A stretch of 55,143 nt of DNA, taken from positions 1-55,143 of the IMG/VR virus record IMGVR_UViG_3300033153_005039; one strand, written 5' to 3'. The notes under the pieces are model-generated. The model saw only the letters and a list, made by a program, of their open reading frames with translations. It was not told where the DNA came from and made no database searches. Below are positions 8,823 to 31,688 of the stretch, piece by piece. Both the position numbers and the translations under genes were made by a program. The DNA is from a virus. How positions within the stretch are numbered: the stretch's first letter is position 1; every line of letters begins with the position of its first letter.

Positions 8823-10220
8823 ATGACCGCCATCCAACAGGCACAAGATCACTACGGGCTAATCGAACCGTGGCGTCTCGCGATCTGGAATACTATCGGA
8901 TTCAAGATGCATCCGGGGCAGGCTCGCGGACTGAAATCATTCCTTGAGCATGACTTCACCTGGATTTGCGCCGGCGGTCGTGGCGGAAAGTCATCACTCA
9001 TCGCGGCAATTATATACTCTGAATTCGTTCGCACACCCGACACTGTAGCAGAGGGTGAACGCTGGCCCAAACAAATCCTCATCCTTGCACCCCAGTACAA
9101 GCAGGCGCGAATCATCTTCGGGATGGTCTACCGCCTCGTAAAGAAATTCGGCATCCCCTTGAAAACGGATCGATTCAGTGAGCAGGCGATGGAACTCGAA
9201 TCAACATGGGGCGCACTCCTGATGTGCATGACCGGACGTAACAAGGATGCATGGGCTGGATTCAACTGGGATTTTGTCGTTGTCGATGAGGCTCCGATAT
9301 TCCGCGATGGGAAAGCTTTCGAAGAGATAATATTCCCGACGCTGTTAGATGAGCAGGGTAAATTCCTCGCAATCGGCACACCGGATTACCCCGGTTCGTT
9401 CTCCCATACCTGGATGCTGGACGGGCTCGATCCCGCCGTGGAGGACTGGGGCTTTGCTCACTGGACAACAATTGATAATTGGTTCATACCCCATGCAGAG
9501 GAGTGGATCGATAAGCGACGGCGCACGACCCCCGATGATATTATTCGACGGCGTTACTTTGCCGAATACGTGAGCCGTTCCGGTCTGGTCTATCCTGAGT
9601 ACCTGCAATGCGTCCACGACTTCACAGCCCCCACCAGTGGACGTTATAACCGCGCCATTGACTTCGGGTTCATTAATCCGTTCGCGTGCCTTGTCGTGCC
9701 CCGTGTGAGCGATGAGTTCTACGTCGTGGATGAAATATTTGAAACGCAGATGAATAAGAGCGAACTCGCGCCGATGCTTAGAGCCCAGGATCATGAGCAC
9801 CCGTTTAAGAGGTCCAGCTTCAATGTGTGCGACCCTGCCGATCCCGAAGGAATTGATTACTTCGGCAAATGGATAGACCCCAAGGGAGGCCGTATCAAGG
9901 GCGTGTGGGTCCGTGATTATTCCAAGGGCGGTATCATGGACCGGATAGATTTCGTGCGCCGTATGATGACCTCAGGGCTCGTACACATACACCCACGGTG
10001 CAGAGAGCTTGTACGTGAGTACTCAGTTTATGCATACCCTGAAAAGAAGGTCGCTAAGAATATTTCAGAGAAGCCGGTCGATTCCGATAACCACGGCATC
10101 AAGGGATTCGAGTATTTGACAGAGTATTTATTTAGTGGTACATTCGATTTGAATATGGATTCGATTCAAGCTGGCGGGAAACGTAAGAGTGCGCGGATAT
10201 TAAAGGGTTATAATGGCTAA
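8823..10220 (+). CDS. terL: Terminase large subunit
   Basis: DNA-packaging motor. The ATPase has a Walker A at residues 51-58 (GGRGGKSS) and a Walker B at 151-158 (FVVVDEAP), with the coupling segment near 185. The RNase H-like nuclease begins around AIDFGF at 278-283, whose Asp is a likely metal ligand. Length (465 residues) is normal and the sequence has the style of Mu gp28-type terminases. It overlaps the portal gene by eight bases. The mRNA seems leaderless, with a dedicated extended -10 promoter that probably starts the late operon. Confidence 0.95.
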   Translation: MTAIQQAQDHYGLIEPWRLAIWNTIGFKMHPGQARGLKSFLEHDFTWICAGGRGGKSSLIAAIIYSEFVRTPDTVAEGERWPKQILILAPQYKQARIIFGMVYRLVKKFGIPLKTDRFSEQAMELESTWGALLMCMTGRNKDAWAGFNWDFVVVDEAPIFRDGKAFEEIIFPTLLDEQGKFLAIGTPDYPGSFSHTWMLDGLDPAVEDWGFAHWTTIDNWFIPHAEEWIDKRRRTTPDDIIRRRYFAEYVSRSGLVYPEYLQCVHDFTAPTSGRYNRAIDFGFINPFACLVVPRVSDEFYVVDEIFETQMNKSELAPMLRAQDHEHPFKRSSFNVCDPADPEGIDYFGKWIDPKGGRIKGVWVRDYSKGGIMDRIDFVRRMMTSGLVHIHPRCRELVREYSVYAYPEKKVAKNISEKPVDSDNHGIKGFEYLTEYLFSGTFDLNMDSIQAGGKRKSARILKGYNG

Positions 10221-14701: not shown

Positions 14702-15142
14702 ATGGTCGATTACGAAAGCGACTACATGCGTGACAGAGGTCACAAATGCAAGAAATCCGGGCAGGGTATGGGGAAGGAATTTGTCGCGGGTGAAGCGATC
14801 ACCCAGGGCACGTTCGTTCAGTTTTCCGGTGCCGACGATATCACTGTCGTAACCGGAGGCGCAGCCGGACCAATTATCGGAATCGCAATGGATACGGTAA
14901 ATACTGGCGATACCATTGAAGTCCAGATGGATGGATTCCACTGGATCATCGTAGGAACCGCAGCCGATCTCGTACCCGGTGACTGGGTTATGTCCGATGC
15001 GAGTGGTATGGCAGTTGAGTACATATGTCCGGCTGCCGGTAATGAGACCACGCTTGGCGGATACATCCTCTCGACACCAACTGACGATGAAGATTGTGTC
15101 TGCATGAAAATCCAACTTGACCGGATATGTTCGGTTGCATAA
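14702..15142 (+). CDS. Capsid decoration protein A (DUF2190-like), 146 aa
   Basis: Small beta-rich protein with the DUF2190-type pattern GEAITQGTFVQFSG, then IIGIAMDTV and GDTIEVQMDG. It lies directly before the major capsid gene, the usual place of head-stabilising proteins. A tandem paralogue follows. Six cysteines, including CVC near the end and CKK near the start, are conserved in both copies, so disulfide or metal stabilisation of the shell is possible. Confidence 0.82.
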   Translation: MVDYESDYMRDRGHKCKKSGQGMGKEFVAGEAITQGTFVQFSGADDITVVTGGAAGPIIGIAMDTVNTGDTIEVQMDGFHWIIVGTAADLVPGDWVMSDASGMAVEYICPAAGNETTLGGYILSTPTDDEDCVCMKIQLDRICSVA

Positions 15143-15155
15143 GGAGGACCATTAA

Positions 15156-15614
15156 ATGTCACCAAATTATTCAAGTGATTACATGCGTGACCGTGGTCAT
15201 TCCTGTAAAAAGTCTGACCAGGGCATGGGTAAAGAGTTCGTTGCCGGAGTAGGTGGTGTCGTACAGGGAACATTTGTAATGTTTGCCGGTACTGATGACA
15301 TCACCGTTATTGATTGCACACTCAACGGTCCCTTGATCGGCGTTGCAATGGACACGGTTGACGAAGGCGATACTGTCGAAGTTCAAATGGACGGCTATCA
15401 CTGGATTCAGATCGGGTCCGTAGGTGATGGACTCGTTGCAGGCGACTGGGTTGTATCCTCCGCTGTTGGCGGACTGGCGGCCCCGTTTGTTTGCCCCGAC
15501 GCTGGTTTTACAACAGTAATGGGCGGATACATCCTTTCTACTCCGGAAGAGAGCGAGGACTGTGTTTGCTTAAAGATTCAGCCAAAGGTGGCTTGCGAAA
15601 TTCAGCGAGGATAA
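15156..15614 (+). CDS. Capsid decoration protein B (DUF2190-like), 152 aa
   Basis: Paralogue of the preceding gene: both share YMRDRGH.CKKS.QGMGKEFVAG, GVAMDTV-type and EVQMDGxHWI segments, and ED.VC.KIQ near the end. Differences concentrate in surface-like loops. AAGGAGG precedes the ATG. The pair may occupy different lattice positions (for example hexon centres and three-fold sites), which is inference. Confidence 0.82.
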   Translation: MSPNYSSDYMRDRGHSCKKSDQGMGKEFVAGVGGVVQGTFVMFAGTDDITVIDCTLNGPLIGVAMDTVDEGDTVEVQMDGYHWIQIGSVGDGLVAGDWVVSSAVGGLAAPFVCPDAGFTTVMGGYILSTPEESEDCVCLKIQPKVACEIQRG

Positions 15615-16659: not shown

Positions 16660-17235
16660 ATGAGTACAATAGTAACTTATCAGGCTATTTATCGCATAGG
16701 CCCAGTCAAAGTCTCAAAGGGTCATGCTGGAATGCAGTCCCGGAAAGTTAACGAAACGTTCACTCTCAACATTGATGATCCGCTTGAGAGGGCGTTGCGT
16801 GACCGGCTACAGAAATTGGGCGCGATATTGCCGATCAATGAACCTGATCTTCCAATTGTTCAGGGGCAGGTGGATGAGCCTGCCCCTGTTGTCGTGGAAG
16901 TATCGGAGCCGCCAGAGTATTCCGAGCCTATTGAGGGCATAACTCCTGAGCATATTCCGGAATCCACTGAGACTGATTACGTCCCAGGTTCCGGGGTACA
17001 AACCAAGCCACTCGATGAACCCATCGATACCCTGATCGATATTCTCACGCCTGAAATCGTGGACACTTTGGAACGCTCCGGCGTTAAGACAATCCGCGAT
17101 CTAGAACGGCGTGAGGACAATGCACTCAGGAATATTGGTGGAATCGGTGCCAAGCGTCTGAAAAACCTCCGCGAAGCTTACAATGAACGCAAAGTGGAGG
17201 AGATGAAGGCAGATGGCGCGGTATCTCACGATTAG
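16660..17235 (+). CDS. Head-associated protein with C-terminal helix-hairpin-helix, 191 aa
   Basis: Beta-rich N-terminus, a Pro/Glu-rich linker (residues 70-120), then a C-terminal domain LTPEIVDTLERSGVKTIRDL...GGIGAKRLKNL, which reads as a helix-hairpin-helix like that in RNA polymerase alpha C-terminal domains and SLOG/HhH connectors. In phages such C-terminal domains occur in head-tail joining proteins. DNA binding inside the head is possible. Confidence 0.7.
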   Translation: MSTIVTYQAIYRIGPVKVSKGHAGMQSRKVNETFTLNIDDPLERALRDRLQKLGAILPINEPDLPIVQGQVDEPAPVVVEVSEPPEYSEPIEGITPEHIPESTETDYVPGSGVQTKPLDEPIDTLIDILTPEIVDTLERSGVKTIRDLERREDNALRNIGGIGAKRLKNLREAYNERKVEEMKADGAVSHD

Positions 17236-17431
17236 AACGTGTCATACCGGATGTAAGCGGCGACCAAAGTATCTGCATCCGGAAGGTGTCGTTATCGAGA
17301 TGCCACCGGATAATAACCGGGTCAAGACATGGCTTTCGCAGCGACGTATCAAGCAGGTTGCCGATGATACGCCGTTGACATCGCCGAAGGATTACAAGGC
17401 CAAGATGGTCGCATTGATGAGGCGAAAATGA
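17213..17431 (+). CDS. Hypothetical basic protein, 72 aa
   Basis: Starts 23 bases inside the previous gene and ends overlapping the next start, so it is translationally coupled on both sides. The protein is basic and ends ALMRRK. It contains a short beta segment (EGVVIEMP). It lies among head-completion genes; role unknown. Confidence 0.65.
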   Translation: MARYLTIRTCHTGCKRRPKYLHPEGVVIEMPPDNNRVKTWLSQRRIKQVADDTPLTSPKDYKAKMVALMRRK

Positions 17432-18147
17432 CCGTAAGGGATATCGATAATCGCTACACGACCATTGAGCGGCTTGCTCTGAGTCAGGGCGAACGCGATC
17501 TTGCTGATGCCTGCGATCAGACCGGGCAAAGCGAGATCGATGCCGAACTGGTCCAGCAGAAGTTACTCGATATCATCTATATGGCGTCCAGGACGGTCGA
17601 TGGCTACCTTCTGAAGCATATGACCATCCCGATACCGGAGACCATCACAGCGTTGACCGTGGGTACTTCTATCACTATGACAAACGGGAGTCATGCCGTT
17701 GTCGGTGTCGGCACTTTGTTTTTGACTGAACTCACTGAAGGTGACGAGATTTATCTCGTTGATGACGAAAATTACTGGTTTGGGGTCGTCGATTCCATTA
17801 CCGACGACCTCAACCTGGTTTTAAAGTATCAGTACAATGGTTTAACAGTTATTGCGACGATAGCCAACAAGCGACAGATCGTAGTGCCCGGATGGGTAGA
17901 ATTACACGCCCGGAATTATGCCCTGTATGAAGTGTGGCGGTTACGTGGTCGGAAGGATGAGGATAATCCGTGGGCAGAGGACAGGGAGAATTCCCGACTG
18001 GCACTGGTAGATTTTCAAAGGTCAAAGCAGAAGTTCCTTGACGGCACGACTGTTCGCAAGAATAACCCCGTTCAAGGCGAAAAAGAGTATTCGGATCGGG
18101 TAATGACACAGACATCTTTGGGCGATTATACGAGTCCACCTTACTGA
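17428..18147 (+). CDS. Head-tail connector (Mu gp36/DUF1320-like) with inserted beta domain
   Basis: The outer parts match DUF1320: an N-terminal helix bundle with QKLLDIIYMASRTVDGYL and a C-terminal helical arm ending YTSPPY. Between residues about 73 and 147 a beta module is inserted with the signature TMTNGSHAVVGVGTLF, then GDEIYLV and ITDDLNLVLKYQYNG. The same module appears in two other virion proteins. The usual family length is near 140, so the 239 residues here are explained by the insertion. Confidence 0.82.
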   Translation: MTVRDIDNRYTTIERLALSQGERDLADACDQTGQSEIDAELVQQKLLDIIYMASRTVDGYLLKHMTIPIPETITALTVGTSITMTNGSHAVVGVGTLFLTELTEGDEIYLVDDENYWFGVVDSITDDLNLVLKYQYNGLTVIATIANKRQIVVPGWVELHARNYALYEVWRLRGRKDEDNPWAEDRENSRLALVDFQRSKQKFLDGTTVRKNNPVQGEKEYSDRVMTQTSLGDYTSPPY

Positions 18148-18148
18148 T

Positions 18149-18631
18149 ATGGCAGATACCGGACTGACATTAAAAGTTGACTTCAAGGACCGTGACGGGT
18201 TCCTGCCCATGCTCAAGAAAGCGAGTCTGGTCAATACGTCGTCGCTGATGCGTAAGATCGGAATGCGGATGCGGAAGCATCAAGTGGGTCATTTCAAAAA
18301 GGAAGAAGATTCAAGCGGTGGAAAATGGCAACCGCTTTCTCAAGTAACACTGGAAGCGCGGCGAAAGGGTAAAAAAAAGGGAAGGCGCAAAGGAATCCTG
18401 AAGGATAACGGATTATTAAGGGATACAATCAGTTGGAGCAGTGATCCTGACAGGGCGGAAGTCGGATCGAATCAGCCCTATGCTGCGACGCACCAGTTTG
18501 GGCGCAAGGGCGGTGGCTGGCAAGGCAGCGATATTCCAGCCCGTGAGTTCCTTTACATCAGTGAAACCGAAGGTAAAGAACTAGCGCAGATAATCGGCGA
18601 TGAAATGTTCAAGTGGATGAAGAAGAAATAA
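18149..18631 (+). CDS. Virion morphogenesis protein (Mu G/P2 S family)
   Basis: Follows the family layout: KVDFKDRDGFLPMLKKA, then a basic GGKWQPLS motif (the conserved W-x-P-L), then ILKDNGLLRDTISW, then YAATHQFG and a C-terminal PAREFLYIS with a helix. These proteins act in tail completion or head-tail joining. Normal length at 160 residues. Immediately followed by the tail terminator candidate. Confidence 0.9.
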   Translation: MADTGLTLKVDFKDRDGFLPMLKKASLVNTSSLMRKIGMRMRKHQVGHFKKEEDSSGGKWQPLSQVTLEARRKGKKKGRRKGILKDNGLLRDTISWSSDPDRAEVGSNQPYAATHQFGRKGGGWQGSDIPAREFLYISETEGKELAQIIGDEMFKWMKKK

Positions 18632-19342
18632 ATGGCTACACCATCAGAAATACGATCCCCGACTAATTTAATCATTGACAGGTTAACCGACCTGTCCAAT
18701 CAGGTTATCGGTGCTGCACATGGTACTGAGCGCACTGGAAAAATCACGTTAACGAATGGTGCTGCTGCCGTTACCGGAACGGATACTTTATTCGTTGCTC
18801 AAGTCGCTATCGGAAATTATATTGCTATCAAATCAGATCGTCTCGGTTACGCAGGTTTCGGACTTGTCTCCAATGTAGCCAACGATACCACGATCACCAT
18901 TGATGCGAATTATACCGGCCCCACAGAGAGCGGCAATTATGTCGTGCTGACAAAGGATGAATATCTTGAAGCGGTCGAATACCCTTCACTTGTGGACGTT
19001 CGCATCTATGACACGATGAAGGAGTTCGCGCCGAACACGCCGTATATTGAGTGGTGGTTCTATTCTGAGGAAATCACGGATCACGGCGAGAACGCGCTCG
19101 GGTTCGTAGCCTGTACCGTCGCTGTGCATCGTTCAAATTTCCGACTGATGCAGCAGGAGTCGAACGAGATTATTCACGATCTCCTGCGCTGGATTCATAT
19201 GCATCATTCACAAACGCACTGGGATTACATCGAGTACGCAGGGTTTGAATCGCCTACAGTTTACACCGATGAAGATCAGCGAAAAGAAACCCTGGTCACG
19301 ACCTATTTCTTTAACATCGCATTTACAAGGCAGGCATACTAA
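18632..19342 (+). CDS. Tail terminator/completion protein with inserted beta domain, 236 aa
   Basis: Position between the morphogenesis protein and tail tube genes suggests a tail terminator. Residues about 37-107 hold the inserted beta module: LTNGAAAVTGTDTLF, then GNYIAI, then VANDTTITIDANYTG. The rest is an alpha/beta fold with an aromatic-rich core (YIEWWFYSEEITDH). The stop and the next ATG overlap by one base. Confidence 0.7.
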   Translation: MATPSEIRSPTNLIIDRLTDLSNQVIGAAHGTERTGKITLTNGAAAVTGTDTLFVAQVAIGNYIAIKSDRLGYAGFGLVSNVANDTTITIDANYTGPTESGNYVVLTKDEYLEAVEYPSLVDVRIYDTMKEFAPNTPYIEWWFYSEEITDHGENALGFVACTVAVHRSNFRLMQQESNEIIHDLLRWIHMHHSQTHWDYIEYAGFESPTVYTDEDQRKETLVTTYFFNIAFTRQAY

Positions 19343-19833
19343 TGGAGTTTAAACCGATCAGACTTATTGCAGACATCACGATTCCGGCGGGAACACGCGC
19401 CCTTGCGGAGCGGAATTATCCCCACGGAACGATCTCCTGTATCACGTCCAAGTTCGGCAGGAACTTACCCGCATACTCGGTGTCATATTACAAACCGCAG
19501 CGGATCGATGCACCGACACCGGAAGAAAGACGCGCCCTGCTTGGAGCCCAGAGCGGTGAGGGGCAAGTCTACGCTATGGAGATTCCACAGCATAAGGAAT
19601 TGAAATGTGACGATCCCGCGTCCCCGCTTGCAGGCAGTCGTATGCAGGCAAAAACAAGGCAGCGGAAAGCGAGATTGGAAGATTTAGAGCGTGAGGATGA
19701 ACGGAAACGGGAAGCTATCGAGGCTCCTGCTCCTGAACCGGAGCCTATTCCAGAGCCAGAACCCGTACCCAAAAAAGACAAGCCCAAACGTTCATATAGA
19801 AAGAAAATAACGGAGGTCACCGAAAATGACTGA
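19342..19833 (+). CDS. Hypothetical protein with charged Pro/Glu C-terminus, 163 aa
   Basis: N-terminal 70 residues look globular and beta-rich (IRLIADITIPAGTR); the second half is a charged helix followed by a PxPEPEP repeat and a Lys-rich tail. Such tails suggest an extended linker. Located between tail terminator and tail tube genes. No family recognised. Confidence 0.7.
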   Translation: MEFKPIRLIADITIPAGTRALAERNYPHGTISCITSKFGRNLPAYSVSYYKPQRIDAPTPEERRALLGAQSGEGQVYAMEIPQHKELKCDDPASPLAGSRMQAKTRQRKARLEDLEREDERKREAIEAPAPEPEPIPEPEPVPKKDKPKRSYRKKITEVTEND

Positions 19834-21079
19834 TACGAAACAATACACGAACCGACAAAGGCAGATGACAGGTCCGGCGGTCCTTAGTGCCTATGATGAT
19901 GTCAACGATTACTATTACCGCCTCGGTTATATCGATGGGATTAGGGTCAGACGTGAATCGGACAACGTTTACCAGTCTGAGATTCATGTCAGCCGTTCGG
20001 TCGCCATTGATGGTCTTACCGTCGGTGAGAGATGGTTCTGTAACTGCTCCGTTATGGAACGGCTCAACCCGGATTGGCAGCGGTTGATTTTCAAGGACTG
20101 CGGTACGCCGTCGATCTTTGGATCATGCAGCTTGCAAACAATCACTGAGGAATTGAGAATGTTCCGTAATCATGCCCAGGTCCTTGCGTTCAAGAATGGA
20201 TTCTGGGGTGACGGTATATTACCCGCGCCGACCGGAGCTGCAAGTGCGGCGGCAGGTGCCGGGGCGACTATCCCGACCGGGACCTATGTAATTGTTGTCG
20301 AGGCCGTTTATACCGATGCACAGGGCTTGAATCCTATCAGGTCAGCGGAAAACGAAGCTGCCGGAACAGGTGTTGTACTTGGACAGGAATTAACTGTGAC
20401 ATGGAATGCACCTGTCGGCGGATACACACCGTCCTATTATAATATCTACGAGTATGATACAGCCCTTGCCGAAACACGAGCAGATGCCGATCTTATAGCC
20501 ATTGTACTGGGCACATCACCGACAGCCGTTATATTCGATTCTTTCACCGATCTTGGCGACTGGCCCGGTGACACACTGGGCGCGGCCTTCACCGTCACGG
20601 ATAATACGGGTCTGATCGATTTCACTGCCGGTGATGACTACACTATCGATGCTACATGCGCCAGGTTCGCATTGCTGGACGACGGCGACATTGACGATGG
20701 GGAGCTGTTACTCGTGACATACACTTACGTCGCGAATCCCTATTACACGCAGACAATTGGACCCGGTGATCGCAATCCGAAGATAATGCATCTTGTTATT
20801 CAGTGGTTCAAGGACGATGAACGTATCACGCCTTCCGGTCGCGGTTGCGAGGTTCATCTATACCATGTCCACACTGAATCCGGTTTTGAATGGCTCTTTG
20901 ACCAGATGGACTTCGAGAGCGGCTTCGATCAGGAATGGCGCGTTCTCCTGGACAGTGCTACCGGAAAGTACGGCGATATTTATACGTATCATAAAGACAT
21001 GGAAACATGGGAGCTATTCGAGCTTTCCAACATCAGTAATTACACAACTGACGACGAATGCAGCCTCGTTAGTTCGTAA
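19826..21079 (+). CDS. Major tail tube-like protein with inserted Ig/FN3-type domain, 417 aa
   Basis: Position before the tail chaperone and tape measure marks it as the tail tube candidate. A central insert of about 100 residues (GTYVIVVEAVYTD, then LTVTWNAPVGGY, then YYNIYEYD) has an FN3-like look, as surface Ig domains do on tail tubes. The flanks have YYRLGY and DFESGFDQEWRVLLDS. A full-length paralogue lies at 30408, sharing N- and C-terminal parts closely. Confidence 0.75.
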   Translation: MTDTKQYTNRQRQMTGPAVLSAYDDVNDYYYRLGYIDGIRVRRESDNVYQSEIHVSRSVAIDGLTVGERWFCNCSVMERLNPDWQRLIFKDCGTPSIFGSCSLQTITEELRMFRNHAQVLAFKNGFWGDGILPAPTGAASAAAGAGATIPTGTYVIVVEAVYTDAQGLNPIRSAENEAAGTGVVLGQELTVTWNAPVGGYTPSYYNIYEYDTALAETRADADLIAIVLGTSPTAVIFDSFTDLGDWPGDTLGAAFTVTDNTGLIDFTAGDDYTIDATCARFALLDDGDIDDGELLLVTYTYVANPYYTQTIGPGDRNPKIMHLVIQWFKDDERITPSGRGCEVHLYHVHTESGFEWLFDQMDFESGFDQEWRVLLDSATGKYGDIYTYHKDMETWELFELSNISNYTTDDECSLVSS

Positions 21080-21097
21080 TAAATAAAGGAGCGTATG

Positions 21098-21652
21098 ATG
21101 ACAGAATCAACTCCCCGCGAGAGGTTGGAATTTAGTATATCCAACAAACCGCCGATGGTGGGCGTGTTCAATGGGAAACCTATATCCATTGAGCGCATCA
21201 AGCTTTCCGAAATAAAAGAAACATGGTCGGAAGTAGTCAAGATCATGCGTACCGCGCAGAATCATGCTATGTTCGCACGCTCCAAAGGTGGCGGCGATCC
21301 AGAGTCAGACGATTCGGTCGCCGCCGCCGATGGACTTTTCGACACGCTGGAAGAACTCGGACCCGGAGCGATTAATATCATCCACACATTCATCAAGGCA
21401 TCGACTGATAGCACCGATGAGATGCTGGACGATGCCGATTTCTGGTCACTGGCAGAACTGGTCGTTTTAATCCTTGAGCATAACGTGGGTCCTGATCTTA
21501 TGGATTTTTTCGGGCGCGGGGCAAGCGTTCTAAGAACACTGAACTTATTGCCCGAATCACCCGATACCAAGGGGAACAATACCTCATCGAGCGAGGATGG
21601 AGCCCCGGAGACATCGACAACTTCTACCCCGGTGAACTCGAATGCAGATTAG
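21098..21652 (+). CDS. Tail assembly chaperone, gpG-like
   Basis: Acidic helical protein between the tail tube and tape measure genes, matching lambda G in position and type. ATG chosen with AAGGAG six bases away; an overlapping in-frame ATG lies one codon earlier. A slippery T TTT TTC sequence at 21505-21511 near codon 137 allows a -1 shift into an overlapping frame, giving a longer GT form. The unshifted product ends in a Ser/Thr-rich tail. Confidence 0.85.
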   Translation: MTESTPRERLEFSISNKPPMVGVFNGKPISIERIKLSEIKETWSEVVKIMRTAQNHAMFARSKGGGDPESDDSVAAADGLFDTLEELGPGAINIIHTFIKASTDSTDEMLDDADFWSLAELVVLILEHNVGPDLMDFFGRGASVLRTLNLLPESPDTKGNNTSSSEDGAPETSTTSTPVNSNAD

Positions 21653-21819
21653 ACGTTATCATTCTCGAAAAGGTAGTTGAGATGATCGAGGCCAATATTA
21701 AGCACATTGAATCGTCAATGATTATGGGTGACAAAGACGGGAAGATGAAGCGTGCGATTGAGGGCAGCAAAATGGATATCAAAAACCATTATTTGAGATT
21801 TCATCATTTGAAGTTCTAA
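21496..21819 (+). CDS. Tail assembly chaperone frameshift extension, T domain
   Basis: This open frame has no start codon near its beginning and reads like protein: ELIARITRYQGEQYLIERGWSPGD, abbreviated here, then NFYPGELECRLDVI and a helical EKVVEMIEANIKHIES. It ends three bases before the tape measure ATG. Expressed only as a G-T fusion by -1 frameshifting, it would recruit tail tube subunits to the tape measure while G coats it. Confidence 0.78.
   Translation, partial: SYGFFRARGKRSKNTELIARITRYQGEQYLIERGWSPGDIDNFYPGELECRLDVIILEKVVEMIEANIKHIESSMIMGDKDGKMKRAIEGSKMDIKNHYLRFHHLKF
21505..21511 (+). promoter_or_regulatory. Programmed -1 ribosomal frameshift site (TTTTTTC)
   Basis: In the G frame the heptamer reads T TTT TTC, a perfect X XXY YYZ slippery site. 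The -1 frame is closed by TGA twelve bases upstream and then open for 107 codons, as in classical G/GT systems. A GTTC-TAA-GAAC hairpin and a CGGGC...GCCCG pairing lie just downstream as possible stimulators. Confidence 0.8.
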
Positions 21820-21821
21820 TC

Positions 21822-24578
21822 ATGGCACTACCGGGATCAACAAAGTATAAAGTAGGACTCGTTTTCGATATCGAGCGAACCGGCTTTATGCGCGGTCTCA
21901 GGGAGATTAATACGAAGGTCGAGGAAAGCCGTAACAAGATGCAGAGGAATTACGGCGCGATCTCTCAATCGATAACGAACGTGGGTCAAAAGTTCATGGT
22001 GGCTACGGCTGCCATTGTCGGCTTCGGCGCGATGGCCGTAAAGACGGCTGCGGACTTTGAACGTGCCATGAACCGTGTCGGTGCTGTATCAGGGGCAACT
22101 GAGGAACAGCTTGCCGCGCTGACAGATCAGGCAAAGGAACTCGGACGCACGACTCAATTCTCGGCATCGCAGGCAGCGGACGCGATGGGATTTCTGGCAA
22201 TGGCTGGATTTGAGGTCAACGATATCATGGGCGCGATGCCGTCCACGTTACAGCTTGCAGCATCGGCCCAGATGGATCTTGCGCAGGCAGCTGATATCAC
22301 ATCGAATATTTTAACCGGCTACCGCATGACAGTTGAGGAACTGGAACACGCCAATGATGTTCTGGTAAAAACTTTCATCTCAACGAATACGAACCTGGCT
22401 CAATTAGGCGAGGCGATGAAATATGCCGCGCCTATTGCTGCATCTGCTGGGATTCAATTCGAGGAAGCATCGGCGGCCATTGGCCTGATGGGTAATGCTG
22501 GTATACAGGCTTCACTTGCCGGAACATCATTGCGTGGGGCGATTGTCAGATTATTGACACCGGGCGGTGAAGCGGCCTCGGTCATGGAGGAACTGGGCCT
22601 ACAAGTCCTTGACGCTACCGGAAACCTGCTACCCCTTGTCGATATCGTAGAACAATTGGAAAGGTCCGGGGCGACCACAGCGGATATGATGACGATATTC
22701 GGACTCAGGGCCGGACCAGCATTCGCCGCTCTTGTCTCGCAGGGCAGTGTCGCTTTGCGTGAGCTTATCGTTGAACTTGAAAATTCAGGAGGCACGGCGG
22801 AGCGAATTGCAGAGAAACAAATGGAAGGACTGCACGGCCAGTTATTGAAATTAAAAAGCGCATTCGAGGGCTTCATGATCGCCCTTGCTGACTCCGGGCT
22901 GATTCAGTGGGTGACAGATACCGCGACGAAAATAACTGAGTGGGTCAGTGCGATGGCGAAATATGATAAACAGACTTTGAAAACAATTATTGTCGTCGGT
23001 GCTCTCGTAGCCGCGATAGGTCCCCTGTTAATAATTCTTGGACAGATTATTATGATTGCCCCCGCTGTCGGAACTGCCGTTACATTCATGTTCGGGCCGT
23101 GGGGATTAGTTATTGCCGGGGCCGTGACAGCGCTTATTCTGGTAACGAAGCATATCAATGCGGTAACGGTAGCGATTCGAGCAGAGATGGACGCCTTAAA
23201 CGCGGAAATTGATGCTATCAACGAAAGCATAGATGCCCATGATGAAATGAGAGAGGAGGTAATTGATCTCAATACTGAGATTGAAAATCTGAGCGAGGAA
23301 ACTGATATAGCGGCGGGAACTTTCGACACATTAAACGACAGGATAATTAAAGTAATTGATGCGTATCCCAAATTGACAGAACAGATGGGATATTCACTGA
23401 CTGCTACTGGCGAGCTTTACGACAAATCCGGGGACCTTGTAGATACAATTGAAGACCAGCAGAGATTATTCGATGCATTTTCATCGGCCTCGATTGTGGG
23501 AGAAATAGACCGGCTGACAACGGCTGAAAGAACTTTGATGGAAGCAGTCAGGGAACGGGCAAGAGTACAGGCCAAAGAGGAATTTTTCGCAGAAAAGGGC
23601 GGATTCGCTGGGTGGTTCAATCGTTTAATCGGACTTGGCGAATGGCAGAAAGAGGGAATGGAACAGGCGTATGGCGGAAATGCATTCGAGGAGTGGCTTA
23701 GAGAAAATTACCCACATCTTGCCACGCCACAGCCGTGGTTAGATGCGCCGCCAACCGTTACGCCCACGGCACCCATTCCGGTTGTAATTGAAGACGATGG
23801 TGAAGATGGCCGTACAAGTACAGGAAGGGCGGCGACTGATGCAACTGAGGATAACACGGAAGCGGTAATAAGCCTTGAAGATGAAATGGCGCAACTGCGA
23901 GAAGCGTTCTTTGAAGTGCCGGACCTGATATTCCGTGGCATGACAACAGGCGCGGATATCGCTTTCGGAGATTTCCTGCGTGATGCGATAGAGGCATTCA
24001 GAGATAGTGAACCGCCAAAGCCTGTAACTGAATTCGATTTTGCGGACCCATTCAGGCCAGCCGCTATGGGCGGTAACGTAATCGATAAGATCAGCGACTT
24101 CTTTGTTGACTTCACAGATGCGATGGAAAACGGTTTAATGGATATGGAGAAGCAGCTATACAATGTCGTGGGGCAATTCGCGGCTGATCTCGTAAGCGGT
24201 GACGTAGGGACTGCGATTCGCGGGGCATTCGCGGGACTCGCCAATTATATTGCGTCGGCAGTACAGCAATCGGTGTCTGCATCAATCGGCGGTGGCGGCA
24301 TGTTTGCCGGGATTGCCGGGGCCGCTATTGGCGGGGCTGTCGGTGCCGGAGTCGCAATACTTGGATCATTGCTATTCCCCGCGAAGCAACCCGGTTTCAG
24401 TAAGGAACTGCCGATCTATGCCAGCATCACGAACTGGAACGAACAGAACCTTGGCAGCTTCTTACCGTTCTCATTTATGATGTCGGGACGTGCCGGGGAG
24501 TTCGATGTTGACTACAGGGGCGCAAGTCTTGACCGCATGAGACAGGGACGACGGTTAGGATTCCATTACATGCAATAA
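21822..24578 (+). CDS. Tail tape measure protein, 918 aa
   Basis: N-terminal TP901-type tape measure domain: KTAADFERAMNRVGAVSGAT, then LGRTTQFSASQAADAMGFLAM, then GLMGNAGIQASLAGTSLRGA. Hydrophobic segments near residues 385-440 form probable membrane-inserting helices. A coiled coil follows (residues 450-510), then a Gly/Ala-rich membrane-like segment near 820-845. At about 0.15 nm per residue the tail would be around 135-140 nm. Position after G/GT is standard. Confidence 0.93.
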   Translation: MALPGSTKYKVGLVFDIERTGFMRGLREINTKVEESRNKMQRNYGAISQSITNVGQKFMVATAAIVGFGAMAVKTAADFERAMNRVGAVSGATEEQLAALTDQAKELGRTTQFSASQAADAMGFLAMAGFEVNDIMGAMPSTLQLAASAQMDLAQAADITSNILTGYRMTVEELEHANDVLVKTFISTNTNLAQLGEAMKYAAPIAASAGIQFEEASAAIGLMGNAGIQASLAGTSLRGAIVRLLTPGGEAASVMEELGLQVLDATGNLLPLVDIVEQLERSGATTADMMTIFGLRAGPAFAALVSQGSVALRELIVELENSGGTAERIAEKQMEGLHGQLLKLKSAFEGFMIALADSGLIQWVTDTATKITEWVSAMAKYDKQTLKTIIVVGALVAAIGPLLIILGQIIMIAPAVGTAVTFMFGPWGLVIAGAVTALILVTKHINAVTVAIRAEMDALNAEIDAINESIDAHDEMREEVIDLNTEIENLSEETDIAAGTFDTLNDRIIKVIDAYPKLTEQMGYSLTATGELYDKSGDLVDTIEDQQRLFDAFSSASIVGEIDRLTTAERTLMEAVRERARVQAKEEFFAEKGGFAGWFNRLIGLGEWQKEGMEQAYGGNAFEEWLRENYPHLATPQPWLDAPPTVTPTAPIPVVIEDDGEDGRTSTGRAATDATEDNTEAVISLEDEMAQLREAFFEVPDLIFRGMTTGADIAFGDFLRDAIEAFRDSEPPKPVTEFDFADPFRPAAMGGNVIDKISDFFVDFTDAMENGLMDMEKQLYNVVGQFAADLVSGDVGTAIRGAFAGLANYIASAVQQSVSASIGGGGMFAGIAGAAIGGAVGAGVAILGSLLFPAKQPGFSKELPIYASITNWNEQNLGSFLPFSFMMSGRAGEFDVDYRGASLDRMRQGRRLGFHYMQ

Positions 24579-24579
24579 A

Positions 24580-25122
24580 ATGTTAAGAATCTGGACATAC
24601 ATAAACCTTGACGCTTTCGGAGACCCCGCGACAGCCGGGACATACTTCGATCCCGAAATATATAATCTTCCCGTGCAGATGAGCCAGAACATTTTGCCGC
24701 AACTTGTCCGCGACGGCACTGAGCGAATAATCGATGATCCACAATTCATGTTCCCGGTCAGAGTAAATTTATCGCTCGCGTCAAGCCATGTCGATCTGAA
24801 AAGCAAGACGGTATATAACGGATCATCGCGTCGGCTTGGTCCGGTCCTGTACCTGCATAAATCAGCATCGATGTGGCTTGTTCTGTTTCATCAGAGTTCG
24901 CAGGGCACGTCACCGAAATGTTACCTGTGCAGGATATTACAACTCGACCCGACACTGGCGGGATACTCAACAATAGATACGTCTGATAAAACTTACGGTC
25001 CCGGTATGGAACCCGTGAGTGGCAATATGCAGTTCGTTCTGTCTGTTAATCGCGACGGAATCTTTACCGACTTTGACAATATTGCAAGTGGAACATACCA
25101 CGCAAGGGAGCCAGCATCATGA
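24580..25122 (+). CDS. Probable tail tip component, 180 aa
   Basis: Directly after the tape measure, where distal tail proteins usually lie. Beta-rich sequence with several aromatic strands (VLYLHKSASMWLVLFHQ). No characteristic motif. The tail-tip assignment rests on gene order. Confidence 0.6.
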   Translation: MLRIWTYINLDAFGDPATAGTYFDPEIYNLPVQMSQNILPQLVRDGTERIIDDPQFMFPVRVNLSLASSHVDLKSKTVYNGSSRRLGPVLYLHKSASMWLVLFHQSSQGTSPKCYLCRILQLDPTLAGYSTIDTSDKTYGPGMEPVSGNMQFVLSVNRDGIFTDFDNIASGTYHAREPAS

Positions 25123-25319
25123 GAATAATCTTTGTAATCCTTTTCGTTTTATTAATCGGTTGTGGCGGATTGTCACCGACAACACCATCGGATGAAATCT
25201 CGCTGTGTCAGGTCGGACCATACAAGTACGATGACGCTTACAGGATGTGGGAATTCTGCTCACACCCTGAAAGCAAACCGTCGCGTGACCTTTGCGGGAT
25301 ATGCCACTGGATTTATTAA
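25119..25319 (+). CDS. Small lipoprotein, 66 aa
   Basis: Signal of about 14 hydrophobic residues ending in LIGC, a good lipobox, so Cys15 would be lipidated. The mature part has four more cysteines (CQV, CSH, CGIC), suggesting disulfides outside the cell. ATGA overlap with the tail gene. A late-expressed lipoprotein among tail genes could block receptors against superinfection, as in T5 Llp; this is analogy only. Confidence 0.7.
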   Translation: MRIIFVILFVLLIGCGGLSPTTPSDEISLCQVGPYKYDDAYRMWEFCSHPESKPSRDLCGICHWIY

Positions 25320-25329
25320 GGAGAAAATC

Positions 25330-25869
25330 ATGTCACAAAAATCATTACTTGCAAGTACAGGTAGGCTTGCTGAAGTAGATCAACTGGGTTATCTGACGGT
25401 TCTCGAAATAGAACATCACAAGATACATTCACAGAAACATTATTGCGCTACTGACTACGATGCTGATGTCGATACTGGAGCAAAATACTGGTTTGTAAGG
25501 ACTCCGGCGACAGGCGCACTATGGCATTTGACCTTTGAGTTTAATTCGAGCCGACACGGATTACTCGAAGCATTCTGGAATCCGACCATAAATGTTGTCG
25601 GAGCCAGCGTTCCGTTCATCAATAATAATTTCAACAGTAATAATGTGGCTACCATTCTGTGTTACAGGGACCCGACAGTCGGTGCCGATGGAAACAGATT
25701 CTTTGTCAGAACAATGGGCGATGATGTGGTCGGTGCAAGCAAGGGATCGGCGGATAAAATCGAGCGACAGCATGAGCGCATCCTTAAACCAAGCAAAGAT
25801 TATCTGTTTAAGTTCACTGCGATTACAGATAATACAAGAGTGAGCATGGAATTCGATGTCTACAATTAA
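25330..25869 (+). CDS. Virion-associated structural protein, 179 aa
   Basis: ATG after AAGGAGAAAATC. Sequence type EIEHHKIHSQKHYCATD, then WHLTFEFNSS, then NFNSNN and GASKGSADKIERQHERILKPSKDYLFKFTA reads like the beta-sandwich minor structural proteins found in many phage genomes. It lies among tail tip genes. Exact role unknown. Confidence 0.65.
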   Translation: MSQKSLLASTGRLAEVDQLGYLTVLEIEHHKIHSQKHYCATDYDADVDTGAKYWFVRTPATGALWHLTFEFNSSRHGLLEAFWNPTINVVGASVPFINNNFNSNNVATILCYRDPTVGADGNRFFVRTMGDDVVGASKGSADKIERQHERILKPSKDYLFKFTAITDNTRVSMEFDVYN

Positions 25870-26000
25870 TGACTGGTGAATTAAAAATACAGCTTGAAAT
25901 CCTTGAAGTATTCTGGGTGATCGATGGTGAAATCCTGTGCGTGGTCGTACAGATCGGTGGCAGAATACTATCAAATCTTGTCTATGAAAAGGGAGCGTAA
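25869..26000 (+). CDS. Hypothetical protein, 43 aa
   Basis: ATG overlaps the preceding stop, and its own stop overlaps the next ATG (TAATG). One beta/helix unit (LEILEVFWVIDGEILCVVVQIGG). Small coupling gene of unknown role. Confidence 0.55.
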   Translation: MTGELKIQLEILEVFWVIDGEILCVVVQIGGRILSNLVYEKGA

Positions 26001-28534
26001 TGTTTTCAGCGGCAGTAGATACAATTATTGAATCCGGACGGGTGATTAAGCGGACAATTGCGCTTGAAATCCGTAATGGCTTTGCCGCATGTGATGACGA
26101 GGATTATACCTGGGTCCCGGTCATAGATTTTGATATCGGCGTCACTGAGAACGTGCCCACTATCGGATCGATGAGGGCATCGCTGGCAATAAAAGACTTC
26201 GAGTACTTCGATGAGTTCGACCACGAATATTATGACACGGGCAACGCGGTCATGTTATATGCGGAGGCTCGTCTCCAATGCACGATATATCTCGACACAG
26301 GGACCGGACTTGCCGGAAACGTTACAATAGTTGCCGGAAATCGTACTGTGACGGGTGCCGGAACCGCATTTCTGACTGATTTCGTGCCCGGTGACCAGTT
26401 TTATGTCAATACGAACCCTGAAATATTGCTCATGGTCTGGGAAGTAACCAATAACACGACCATGACCGTGTACGAGATACCCTCTGAGAGCTTCGCAGGT
26501 GCCGCGTACAGCGTGGTAGATGCCGAGCGCGAGTACATCTTCCGTGGGTTCATTACCGACCGTCAGATCGTCGATAAGGCGATTACGGTCGAATGCTATG
26601 ACTGGCTCCAGAAACTACAGACATGCCTGACGAATTTCCAATTAGAGGCTGATTATGTAGCGGGTTCGCCATTTGCCAACGCAGCCTTGCAGGAAGAGCC
26701 CGTACTTGATATGGGTCAGCACATGATTTATGAGATTGATCCTATCGCTCATCCGTGGGCCGAGAATCCCGCAGGATTGAATCGTGTCTTTGTACCCGCA
26801 GCCTTCGAGGTTGAGATTTTCTGGGGCGCGGCATGGCATTTAGTCGCAGCCAGCAGATATCAGGTAATTGAAGTACTTGGGCTGATTGATTTCAAGGAAG
26901 ACATGGGTGCCGGTGCTGTCATGCGTATAGTGTCGGTTTCGGTTTATCAGGAAGGGACGCTGGAACTTGAGGACGTCTACACTGAGGTTCTGACAGATGA
27001 TTCGACAGTTGACTGGCCGGACTGCCTTAACATTGCCTGTGGTTTCGATGATACGACATGGCGCGAAACTCTCACGGGAACATTCACCCTTACCAACGGA
27101 AACATCAATGTTATCGGAATCGGCTGCGCTTTCGATACTGAATTGACTGCCGGTGATCGTATCGCACATAACGCGACACCGACAGATTTCGGTATCGTCG
27201 CTTCAATCGCGGGGCCGAATGCGCTGACGTTGGAATATCCATATCCAGGCGGGACCGCTGGGCCTTTCGCGGGATTCAAATCAACACTGAGATGGTCCGG
27301 TTTATCGATCACGAAAGTTGAATGGCAGTATTGTGATGGAACCGCCGCGAATCTGATGCGATTATTGCAGCGCGACTATGCTGATGTTCGCGGGTATCGA
27401 ATCTGGTACGACCCCATGGATGACGTTGTGAGGGGTGACAGGGTTGAGATAAGAGAAGATGCGGACCCGCGAGTTATGGACCTCGGACTGATCGGTTCAT
27501 TGATGACGGATATCACAAGTGAAAATTTCTACTCTGCTATCGCCGTGACGGGGACACTTGACCGGGCTAAGAATTATGCCACCGACGCCCTCGTTGCGAC
27601 CACGCTTGATGCTGAAATCGCGGGATGGAAACCGGGGACATCAAAGGGCGGCTCGACAGCCTTTGGCAATATGACCTGGAGTGTTACGCCCGGTGCCGGA
27701 AATGCCGAACTTGGATTAAGAGATACCGATATCGAGGTTGCCTACCCTGTTTATTTTACTTTTCCAAATGCCGCCGCCGCCCTTGCTGCCGAATTGGTCT
27801 GGTACGATTACATCACGATTGATCTCGGTGTTGAAATTAATCTTGGCGACATCATAATTTACAACATTAATTGTAAGAATGAAAACAATTACTCACAGGG
27901 TGTCTGGCTACAGTACTCAACTGATGGCGTGAACTTCTACGATATCCTGAACTGCTATCAAGTGGAATTCTCCGAAGATGAACGCAAGACTATCGATGCG
28001 AGTCAGTACACGGCGCGGCATATCAAGATAATGTGCCGTCCATTTAAATGGCCGCAAGGGACGGCATGGAGCGGTACGAGAACTCGCACAATGGGACTCA
28101 GGGAAATAATCATCTTTGGTTCCGAGGATATCTGCGAGATGGTCTGTGTGCAGAATACAGATGTCGGTGGTGGTCGAACAGTCGGTGGCGTTTTCATCAG
28201 TGATTATTATCCTGAGATCATAAAGAAGCTTTGCAATATCGGGCATCAGGTTTTGATCGATGATTCCGGCCTTGTCCTCAGTAATGAGGAAGCAATCGAC
28301 CGTGGCTATCTCCTGCTCAATGAATACATACGCCTTTACAGGCAGATAACATGGGACGGTGCTTTCGATCCCCGAATACAGATTTACCGCACGGTTCGCA
28401 CTCAGGACGTTTACCGCGAGGTTGATACCGATGTGCTCCGTTATATTTGCGAGAATTACAGCATCAATAACGAATCGACAATGATCTCCGGAAGGGAGTA
28501 CGGGGGCGGTGTACTTGCACCGAATTACTCATGA
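26000..28534 (+). CDS. Tail tip/receptor-region protein with F5/8-type and inserted beta domains, 844 aa
   Basis: Large tail protein. Two copies of the inserted beta module lie at residues about 100-173 (GNRTVTGAGTAFLTDF) and 359-430 (LTNGNINVIGIGCAF). Residues about 545-708 read as a discoidin (F5/8 type C) domain: YITIDLGVEINLGDIIIYN, then YSTDGVNFYDIL, then ARHIKIMCR and LREIIIFG. Such domains bind sugars, so the protein probably contacts the cell surface glycan. The C-terminus resembles a tail hub end. Gene order supports the tail tip role. Confidence 0.75.
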   Translation: MFSAAVDTIIESGRVIKRTIALEIRNGFAACDDEDYTWVPVIDFDIGVTENVPTIGSMRASLAIKDFEYFDEFDHEYYDTGNAVMLYAEARLQCTIYLDTGTGLAGNVTIVAGNRTVTGAGTAFLTDFVPGDQFYVNTNPEILLMVWEVTNNTTMTVYEIPSESFAGAAYSVVDAEREYIFRGFITDRQIVDKAITVECYDWLQKLQTCLTNFQLEADYVAGSPFANAALQEEPVLDMGQHMIYEIDPIAHPWAENPAGLNRVFVPAAFEVEIFWGAAWHLVAASRYQVIEVLGLIDFKEDMGAGAVMRIVSVSVYQEGTLELEDVYTEVLTDDSTVDWPDCLNIACGFDDTTWRETLTGTFTLTNGNINVIGIGCAFDTELTAGDRIAHNATPTDFGIVASIAGPNALTLEYPYPGGTAGPFAGFKSTLRWSGLSITKVEWQYCDGTAANLMRLLQRDYADVRGYRIWYDPMDDVVRGDRVEIREDADPRVMDLGLIGSLMTDITSENFYSAIAVTGTLDRAKNYATDALVATTLDAEIAGWKPGTSKGGSTAFGNMTWSVTPGAGNAELGLRDTDIEVAYPVYFTFPNAAAALAAELVWYDYITIDLGVEINLGDIIIYNINCKNENNYSQGVWLQYSTDGVNFYDILNCYQVEFSEDERKTIDASQYTARHIKIMCRPFKWPQGTAWSGTRTRTMGLREIIIFGSEDICEMVCVQNTDVGGGRTVGGVFISDYYPEIIKKLCNIGHQVLIDDSGLVLSNEEAIDRGYLLLNEYIRLYRQITWDGAFDPRIQIYRTVRTQDVYREVDTDVLRYICENYSINNESTMISGREYGGGVLAPNYS

Positions 28535-30147
28535 CTTATCACGACAGATCATATAAGAACAGGCCACAGAATGAACCGCGTGAAATCGGACGTATCCATC
28601 GTGATCTTGCAGCGCAGGACGCGATGAGTATAAGTAAGATTTCCAGTAACCTTCACGCCATACCGACAGCACCGATAACAACAAGTGAAGGTGGCGATTC
28701 GGCCTGTTGCTGTGATCGAGTCGTGTATGTGAGCAAGGACGGCTCCGGTGATTTCGATGATATCCAGCAGGCCATTGACGATATCGCCGCTTACGAAACA
28801 CCATCGGCTACTGCGCCTTGGGTGATTTATATTTGTCCCGGCGAGTATGTCGGTGACGTTATCATGGCCGATTACGTGTCGCTGGTCGGCATCGGTACGA
28901 AGGAACATGGGGCGCGGATAATCGGCGTGGCGAATCCGGCTGTGATTACTTTTCCCGACCATGACACTACAATTGAAAATTTATATATTGAAACTGAAAT
29001 CGATCTCGGAGCAGCCACCTCAGCGGCGGTACATGTCCGGGGTTCTACGCACTGGATAATAAATTGCTCTGTAAATACGAATGCAATTAACGGGGCAGGT
29101 GGCGCATGTATTCATATCGACGAAGATGTCATAGTCCATATGGGAGAAAACATAATTAAATATGTCGGCACCGGGACAGATGCCGCAGCCAGAAGTCATA
29201 TTGGTGTCAATTTTGGATTCACTAACTCGAAGGTCTACTTTACCAACAATGAAATGAGCATTATCTTCGATGGTGATAACGATAACGGCTATCTGTTCCA
29301 TGAAGAGCCCGGAGTCGATCTCACGGTTTATGTCGAGAACAATATATTTAATATCGAAAGCACTACGTTAATCGGAGCCCCATCGATTTATAATTGGGAA
29401 GCGAATGGATTTGGCTATAGATATTCTGTTAATAATCACTGGATACAAAAATACAACGGCATTGGCGGCGCGGATACGGCTTTCAACTTAACAGGTGGGG
29501 CAAAGCTTGAATTCTTTAGCTCTCATAATAAATTGCAATATGACAGAGGCATAACCGGAATACTGGCAGCATGGGCTGGCGCGGAAACATTCTATTCCAT
29601 CTTCGACGATCTCGATAATTATACAGCTACTATCCCCGGTGCTCTCGCTGTTTTCAAATATGTAATATCGGGTGATGCGAATTACGGTACTCCCGGCAAC
29701 CTGCATATCAGCAATGCCTATACAAGCGATGACCCGCCGCGCTCCCGTGGATACCGTAACGGTAATCAGCTAATCGGCACAGGTGCCCTGACCATCGTTC
29801 AGACGAATGCTGAAACTTATGATTCATCGAACATTCATAATACTGGAACTTACAGAACGATCCCGAACGTGCCCGGTTACTATTCCGTTGAAGCGCAGAT
29901 AACGTATCAATCGGGTGTGGATACAAAGAAATACTATTGCGATATTCTGAAAAATGGCGGTCTGGCAGCGAGAACCATAGTCCGCACCGGTTCAGCAGGC
30001 GCGATAGCCGCCCGATGCTCTGATATAATCTTTTGCAATGGCTCGACAGACTTTATAGAATTACGAGCGTATCATGACTCCGGTGCGGGCAAGAATTTAT
30101 CAGGTAATACTTATTCCACTTTCATCTGTGTTCATAAATTATCATAG
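28531..30147 (+). CDS. Tail spike with pectin-lyase-like beta helix, 538 aa
   Basis: Residues 65-360 have the pectate lyase-like pattern VSKDGSGDFDDIQQAIDDI, YICPGEYVGDVIMADYVSLVG abbreviated, then NLYIE, NCSV and NNEM repeats of a right-handed parallel beta helix. The C-terminal 140 residues (after SRGYRNGNQ) look like a trimeric TNF/C1q-type beta-sandwich that may fold or cap the trimer. An N-terminal tail would attach it to the tip. It may bind or cut a host polysaccharide; no catalytic residues can be assigned with confidence. Confidence 0.8.
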   Translation: MTYHDRSYKNRPQNEPREIGRIHRDLAAQDAMSISKISSNLHAIPTAPITTSEGGDSACCCDRVVYVSKDGSGDFDDIQQAIDDIAAYETPSATAPWVIYICPGEYVGDVIMADYVSLVGIGTKEHGARIIGVANPAVITFPDHDTTIENLYIETEIDLGAATSAAVHVRGSTHWIINCSVNTNAINGAGGACIHIDEDVIVHMGENIIKYVGTGTDAAARSHIGVNFGFTNSKVYFTNNEMSIIFDGDNDNGYLFHEEPGVDLTVYVENNIFNIESTTLIGAPSIYNWEANGFGYRYSVNNHWIQKYNGIGGADTAFNLTGGAKLEFFSSHNKLQYDRGITGILAAWAGAETFYSIFDDLDNYTATIPGALAVFKYVISGDANYGTPGNLHISNAYTSDDPPRSRGYRNGNQLIGTGALTIVQTNAETYDSSNIHNTGTYRTIPNVPGYYSVEAQITYQSGVDTKKYYCDILKNGGLAARTIVRTGSAGAIAARCSDIIFCNGSTDFIELRAYHDSGAGKNLSGNTYSTFICVHKLS

Positions 30148-30156
30148 GAGTTCGCA

Positions 30157-30411
30157 ATGGCCTTCAAGGAAGATTTAAAAAAGCATTTGCCGAGGATGAT
30201 AACCGACCCGGAATCCCCATATGATATAATGGGAACCGTTCTCGATTTATGTTCGCCGTTAACCCTGAGTTCGATAAAGAGCGACCTGACACCGGCACTG
30301 AATCAGGCCATTGATGAATATCATGCAGAGATAAGGGACACTATCAGGGCGCAAGCATTGGAGTTGCCGGAAGATGATCCATTACGATTAGCGATTGAGA
30401 TCACGCCATGA
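30157..30411 (+). CDS. Hypothetical protein, 84 aa
   Basis: Ribosome site AGGAG. Helical sequence with LKKHLPRMI and LNQAIDEYHAEIRDTIRA; overlaps the next gene by ATGA. Possibly a chaperone or regulator of the second tail-tube-like gene, from position only. Confidence 0.65.
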   Translation: MAFKEDLKKHLPRMITDPESPYDIMGTVLDLCSPLTLSSIKSDLTPALNQAIDEYHAEIRDTIRAQALELPEDDPLRLAIEITP

Positions 30412-31688
30412 CAGATAGAAAACAATTCACGCACAGACAGATTCAAATGGCCGGACCCGCCGTCCTGTCCGCATACGACGACGTGAACGACTATTACTAC
30501 CGTCTGGGGTACTTGGATAACCTCGCCCTCAGTCGCGTCTCTGACAGCGTGTATCAGCGCGAGTACCATGTTTCACGGTCGGTTGCCATTGACGCAATTA
30601 CCCGTGAAGAGGACTGGGCATTAAAATTCTCAATCAAGGAGCGATTAAACCCGGACTGGCAGCGGCTCGTTTTTAAAAATTGTGGCACTCCGGTAATCCA
30701 TGAGGAGTGTTCCCTGCAAGTGACCGCCGAAAAGATGCGGATGTTCCGACGGCACGCGAAATTTATTGACAGTGAGGGCGCATTATGGGGTAGTGAACTT
30801 CCCGGACCGCCACCGGATGTACCACCGCCAGTACCACCGCCCGTAAATGTTATCGGACACGACGGCGCAGGTGGCGCAATCCCTGCGGGAACTTACGTGA
30901 TCGTTGTCGAGGCAGAATATATCGATCATCAGAACGCGGGTATCGCTGTGCGATCTGAGTACATGGAAACGGGCGCGATAATTGTGGGCGCGTCGCGAGT
31001 AACGCTGACATGGGATGCCCCGGCGGGAACATATGAACCACATCACTACAATATTTACGTTTACAACACGACGCTGGGCCAAACCCGCGCCGATGCACAA
31101 CTAACAGCAGTTGTCGGAAATGAACAACCGGCCGCGATTGTGTTCGATGAATTTCAGGACTTCGGGGACTATCCCGGCGACGTTGACGGCGCGAGTTTTA
31201 TTGTCACTGACAGCACGGGAGAAATCGAGTACGTGAACGGTGACGATTACACCATTGATATTTCATGCGGGATTTTTAAGCTGGTCGAAGACGGCGATAT
31301 TCAGGACGGGCAATTAATAATTATTTACTATGCCTTTGTCGCGAATCCGTACTATCAGCAAAGTATCGGACCCGGTGACAGGAATCCTCGAATCCTTCAC
31401 TTTGTAATCAAGTGGTTCAAAGATGATGAAAGAATCAATCCAGCTGGGCGCGGGTGTGAAATTCATCTCTATCACGTTCACGCCGAGTCAGGCTTTGAAT
31501 GGCTATTCGATGAAATGAATTTTGAATCGGGCTGGGATCAGGACTACCGCGTCCTGCTCGACTCAGGCACTGGGAAATACGGTGATATCTTTACGTTCCA
31601 CAAGTACATGGAGTCATGGGAATTATTCGAGCTGTCTGGAATCAGCGATTACACGAACGATGAAGCATGCGATCTGGTGAGCTCATGA
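30408..31688 (+). CDS. Second tail-tube-like protein, paralogue of the major tail protein, 426 aa
   Basis: Shares AGPAVLSAYDDVNDYYYRLGY, SDSVYQ, VSRSVAID, ERLNPDWQRL and the whole C-terminal region with the protein at 19826. It differs in the insert, which here is preceded by a Pro-rich linker (PPPDVPPPVPPP). It is located after the spike genes rather than in the tube position, so it may form a special ring (tip or neck) or replace the main tube protein. Confidence 0.75.
   Translation: MTDRKQFTHRQIQMAGPAVLSAYDDVNDYYYRLGYLDNLALSRVSDSVYQREYHVSRSVAIDAITREEDWALKFSIKERLNPDWQRLVFKNCGTPVIHEECSLQVTAEKMRMFRRHAKFIDSEGALWGSELPGPPPDVPPPVPPPVNVIGHDGAGGAIPAGTYVIVVEAEYIDHQNAGIAVRSEYMETGAIIVGASRVTLTWDAPAGTYEPHHYNIYVYNTTLGQTRADAQLTAVVGNEQPAAIVFDEFQDFGDYPGDVDGASFIVTDSTGEIEYVNGDDYTIDISCGIFKLVEDGDIQDGQLIIIYYAFVANPYYQQSIGPGDRNPRILHFVIKWFKDDERINPAGRGCEIHLYHVHAESGFEWLFDEMNFESGWDQDYRVLLDSGTGKYGDIFTFHKYMESWELFELSGISDYTNDEACDLVSS

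Follow-up and report, generated by a model that had tools for sequence, protein, structure and literature searches.

Why would a single virion carry the same small domain at several separate places in its structural proteins? The question is raised by a virus record of 55,143 nt (IMG/VR record IMGVR_UViG_3300033153_005039), the whole 55 kb of which we call the window, and in which an earlier note had proposed that one beta module interrupts three virion proteins at four places. We confirm that the four stretches are copies of one homologous virion domain of ~75 residues, all encoded on the plus strand. Copy 1 (17662-17889) lies inside a head-tail connector of the Gp36/DUF1320 type, copy 2 (18734-18970) inside a tail terminator candidate, and copies 3 (26312-26542) and 4 (27074-27301) inside one and the same tail-tip-region protein. 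These boundaries, obtained from profile searches, agree with those of the earlier note to within ~25 nt for all four copies.

Leave-one-out profiles, in which each copy is scored with a profile made from the other three, gave 52.7, 35.9, 31.7 and 46.6 bits for copies 1 to 4, whereas shuffles of the same residues (n=2000) reached at best 9.2-15.1 bits; the alignment of the four copies is therefore well above background. An outside profile, built exclusively from the fibre modules of N15, HK225, ES18, SPN3UB, ENT39118, phiES15, SaltyDalty and nickie, was searched against the six-frame open reading frames (ORFs) of the window and retrieved the three carriers with E values of 1.9e-15, 1.1e-13 and 1.4e-10, and the single copies with E values from 3e-15 to 5.5e-7. 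The next-best ORF had an E value of 0.67, so that only the four copies were matched, and a wider profile of 50 sequences likewise found exactly four copies in the window. The motif pattern first proposed for the module holds for the most part, but copy 2 has GN instead of GD, copy 3 reads GDQF, and the DT is missing from copy 4.

The module is confidently predicted to fold as a small beta-barrel. In AlphaFold2 (AF2) models of their two different carriers, copies 1 and 2 show the same strand order plus one short helix, with predicted local distance difference test (pLDDT) scores of about 83-97 and 88-98, respectively; the predicted folds are thus related, although the alignments used for the two models share module rows and are not fully independent. 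Structural neighbours identified with VIA-align include the LKA1 gp49 tailspike (Z 9.0 and 8.1), an insert of the Mystique tail tube (residues 103-181, Z 7.5 and 6.3), the Chi tail tip (Z 6.5), and residues 87-170 of the T5 distal tail protein (Dit) pb9, the last with a Z of 5.4 (root-mean-square deviation 3.1, 74 aligned) that is in the range of generic small barrels. A Foldseek search against the PDB returned nothing at E <= 1e-3. The structural neighbours listed include no immunoglobulin domain and no dedicated carbohydrate-binding module entry, an absence that does not count against either. Taken alone, the predicted fold gives no indication of function.

The connector that carries copy 1 (17428..18147, 239 residues, PF07030, phrog_195 head-tail adaptor) provides the clearest view of how the module sits in its host protein. 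As encoded, it matches PF07030 (Mu Gp36) with 27.8 bits, above the gathering cutoff of 24.7, over profile positions 1-63. When copy 1 is spliced out in silico the score rises to 36.7 bits and the match extends over profile positions 1-102, and because of this extension we conclude that copy 1 is a true insertion inside the Gp36 fold. Consistently, the AF2 model places it between two long helices, at residues 39-64 and 155-176.

For the terminator candidate (18632..19342, 236 residues), the assignment as gpU-like is based on gene position, which between neck and major tail protein is the expected one, and on a model whose core has a pLDDT of only 38-67. In this low-confidence model residues 10-233, a span with sequence before and after copy 2, align to the lambda tail cap gpU (8iyd_K) with a VIA-align Z of 7.1; the model also aligns to the neck protein 8qkh_G of phage 812 (Z 7.1) and to the pyocin collar 6u5f_A. 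The candidate has no sequence match to support the assignment, and the spliced sequence gave no convincing family match. These data support, without proving it, an insertion of copy 2 within a gpU-like terminator fold, between helix 1 and the remainder of that fold.

The third carrier is the tail-tip-region protein (26000..28534, 844 residues), which has no family match outside the modules and a discoidin-like part, and whose spliced version gave no convincing one. We could not find any relative of this protein in IMG/VR, genome contigs or phage protein records, which leaves copies 3 and 4 with no module-free counterpart, and copy 3 searched alone matched no protein. The discoidin-like stretch (residues ~603-681) is of the F5/8 type C and scores 27.5 bits with PF00754, just below the cutoff of 28.2.

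Searches in other phages showed that the module is already widespread. Homologous modules stand at the N-terminus of side or tail fibres such as those of N15 (gp25), HK225 and ES18; further homologues are residues 3-74 of the distal tail protein gp20 in PDB 23gd_B (profile match E 1.7e-19) and residues 7-75 of the F2-pyocin side fibre (E 7.5e-16). In the gp20-like protein the module precedes a minor-tail-protein part (PF05939, phrog_14), in Pseudomonas phage nickie it occurs both in a lipase and in a fibre, and in a metagenomic phage locus (L095) it is internal to a TipJ/gpJ-related protein. A consensus query found the domain in 253 named phage records, and a pattern scan of IMG/VR yielded at least 118 loci, the profile confirming the domain in 118 of the 119 listed. 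Among the strong matches listed, 69 of 104 begin at most 45 residues from the start of the open frame and the others are internal, in a sample biased by the search pattern and by near-duplicates. Pfam and NCBIfam hold no model for the module, and in the literature we found neither a name for it nor a paper on PDB 23gd or 25ve. Two metagenomic phage proteins of 960-973 residues (L040:9194-12112 and L124:10130-13009) contain several divergent, tandem-like copies.

These comparisons also indicate what is particular to the present virus. With the N15 gp25-type fibres (HK225 gp25, ES18 gp33; PHROG 1980, 17834, 28473) the homology extends over the full ~70-residue length of the module, but each of those fibres has one copy, at its N-terminus, whereas here all four copies are internal to neck and tail-tip-region proteins and none is N-terminal on a tail fibre; the module is thus homologous and its carriers are not gp25-type fibres. 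The F2-pyocin side fibre (PDB 25ve) similarly has one homologous N-terminal domain, in a fibre. Dhillonvirus also has more than one copy per genome in tail-end proteins (distal tail protein gp20, PDB 23gd, phrog_9922, and lateral tail fibre), TheodorHerzl having two, one in the protein at the distal tail position and one in the lateral tail fibre; these are, however, N-terminal and restricted to the tail end, with none in a connector or terminator. Beyond homologues, the oligosaccharide/oligonucleotide-binding (OB) decorations of T5 pb9 and JBD30 are also small beta-barrels that decorate a tail ring (PMC10038345, PMC11445458), but no sequence match to them was found, the Z (to pb9) is modest, and they sit on another carrier. 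Carbohydrate-binding modules likewise decorate the neck, tail and Dit of the 936 lactococcal siphophages (PMC6669499); these are described as carbohydrate-binding and two of them bind host cells. The unusual part of the present case is the presence of the module in a neck connector and in a tail cap, the likely terminator.

What might such a domain do there? The module can be regarded as an add-on domain which in many phages forms the N-terminal, virion-proximal part of side fibres, and which here would have been inserted in the neck-connector ring, the tail-terminator ring and the tail-tip-region protein. It presumably faces outward from the rings, where its main work would be protein-protein contact, i.e. 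docking of appendages or accessory proteins or bracing of adjacent rings, rather than host recognition. We favour this docking or ring-bracing role, at about an even chance of being right, because copy 1 shows stronger conservation than the connector sequence surrounding it and because the module so often lies at the virion end of fibres. The usual subunit numbers are 12 for a neck connector, 6 for a tail terminator and 3 for a tail-tip hub, so the total would come to about 24 modules per virion if these numbers hold and if the tail-tip-region protein is the hub.

The conservation of copy 1 can be followed in relatives of the virus, where its identity is 73-81% as compared to 63-69% for the surrounding connector, with nonsynonymous divergence (dN) of 0.10-0.22 and 0.18-0.36, respectively. 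Synonymous divergence (dS) is saturated, copy 2 included, which makes dN/dS unusable for most pairs; wherever dS can be estimated, dN is well below it.

Several observations weigh against a docking or bracing role. Copy 2 is less conserved than the flanks of its terminator (53-55% versus 64% identity, and dN agrees), which would also fit a surface exposed to targets that change. The Z values of 5-7.5 that link the module to tail proteins are also reached by unrelated small barrels such as those of Uba1 and ATP synthases. Since N15, HK225 and ES18 have one copy each, pairing between modules is not general. Finally, the nearest functional analogues are the OB domains that decorate the distal tail proteins of T5 and JBD30, and for these a carbohydrate-binding role has been named or proposed (PMC10038345, PMC11445458). 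Surface decoration, as the earlier note suggested, is consistent with a homologous beta domain in neck and tail-tip proteins, but the location of the module at fibre roots fits docking at least equally well.

The alternative that fares best is adhesion to the host or its environment, the modules acting as carbohydrate-binding decorations that keep the phage close to cells or mucus until it binds irreversibly. It finds precedents in the 936 phages, whose carbohydrate-binding modules occur in the neck passage structure, the major tail protein and Dit, two having been shown to bind host cells (PMC6669499), and in the surface carbohydrate binding proposed for the T5 Dit decorations; the discoidin-like domain of the tail-tip-region protein, even below its Pfam cutoff, and the faster evolution of copy 2 relative to its carrier point the same way. 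However, a comparison of 50 modules revealed no putative binding site that is conserved among them, the invariant or near-invariant residues being structural ones (G, T, N, V and F); in many phages the fibre end that carries the module is the one at the virion, and the opposite end binds the host; and copy 1 behaves contrary to copy 2. We regard adhesion as a tentative possibility that deserves to be taken seriously.

A mostly passive decoration, in which the surface loops of ring proteins tolerate a stable domain that itself does little, would account for the very wide distribution over unrelated carriers and positions and for divergent copies that conserve only structural residues. It is less easily reconciled with the maintenance of the module. 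Wherever the sequence of a relative extends to the neck copies, they are retained: L006, L007/L008 and L009 all have copy 1, and L007 and L009 have copy 2 as well. No empty insertion site exists among the relatives found, which are six contigs, mostly short, recovered via the capsid protein. Also against it, dN is well below dS wherever dS can be estimated, which excludes copy 2, where dS is saturated. We therefore consider passive decoration unlikely.

As to origin, the earlier note held that the domain has been spread within one genome, and the presence of four copies in one genome, two of them in one protein, might suggest that in this phage lineage one module was recently duplicated across proteins. 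A single clade of the four copies is indeed not rejected (approximately unbiased test, p-AU 0.665; the constrained tree is not worse). But such spread is not borne out by the sequences, as the copies share 21-35% identity (mean 27%), no more than they share with the modules of unrelated phages (mean 30%). Moreover, in a tree of 60 modules, which has too few columns and in which most forks are unresolved, copies 1 and 2 group with the orthologues at the same position in relatives, so that any duplication here would be old. A recent duplication thus appears improbable; the copies are old, and their divergence is compatible with both spread within the lineage and separate acquisition. Single-protein queries with the terminator and the connector in IMG/VR and genome contigs gave no relatives, and no near DNA match to the window exists in 50,697 phage records. 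Convergence on low-complexity beta sequence rather than homology, which the abundance of T, N, G and V in the motif might evoke, is refuted by the far lower scores of same-residue shuffles, by an outside profile that finds the four copies and nothing else, and by the common strand order modelled at high pLDDT in different proteins, even with shared module rows.

The modules lie in a late region that runs from the terminase to a portal fused to a head morphogenesis domain, a protease, two cement proteins and the major capsid protein, then the Gp36-type connector, the neck1/tail-completion protein, the terminator candidate and more tail genes, among them one for a probable major tail protein, and finally the tape measure and the tail-tip-region genes. 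The neck1/tail-completion protein (PF05069, 18149..18631, plus strand) separates the carrier of copy 1 from that of copy 2 and itself lacks the module. The portal fusion is a 771-residue frame (10213-12528) that matches phrog_113 at residues 18-539 and phrog_220, a minor head/head morphogenesis domain, at 562-733. The cement or decoration proteins (14702-15142 and 15156-15614) are tandem duplicates, 61% identical, the first matching PF09956, and the pair is also present in relatives L005 and L006. Directly after the major capsid gene, the product of 16660-17235 has a C-terminus weakly resembling a helix-hairpin-helix or RNA polymerase alpha C-terminal domain (PF03118 E 3e-4, PF14520 E 2e-3, both below cutoffs), and L005-L009 have similar proteins in the corresponding position. 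The products of 19826-21079 and 30408-31688 are paralogues with 59% identity along the full length and a weak match to phrog_807 (major tail protein, immunoglobulin-like domain); the second lies downstream of the tail-tip-region genes. Finally, the 538-residue protein that follows the tail-tip-region gene (28531-30147) has a weak pectinesterase-like match (E 0.005) and is possibly a beta-helix spike.

Naming this module would clarify many annotations of 'tail fibres'. That a head-tail connector and a likely terminator both carry it suggests that the rings of the neck can be decorated in the same manner as tail tubes and distal tail proteins, and the neck modules predict extra density around the neck. 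More speculatively, and with considerable doubt, the barrel might be a general virion dock that marks sites of appendage attachment both at the roots of side fibres and on the outer faces of rings; if so, this phage would be expected, from the modules of its connector and terminator, to have a collar or neck fibres.
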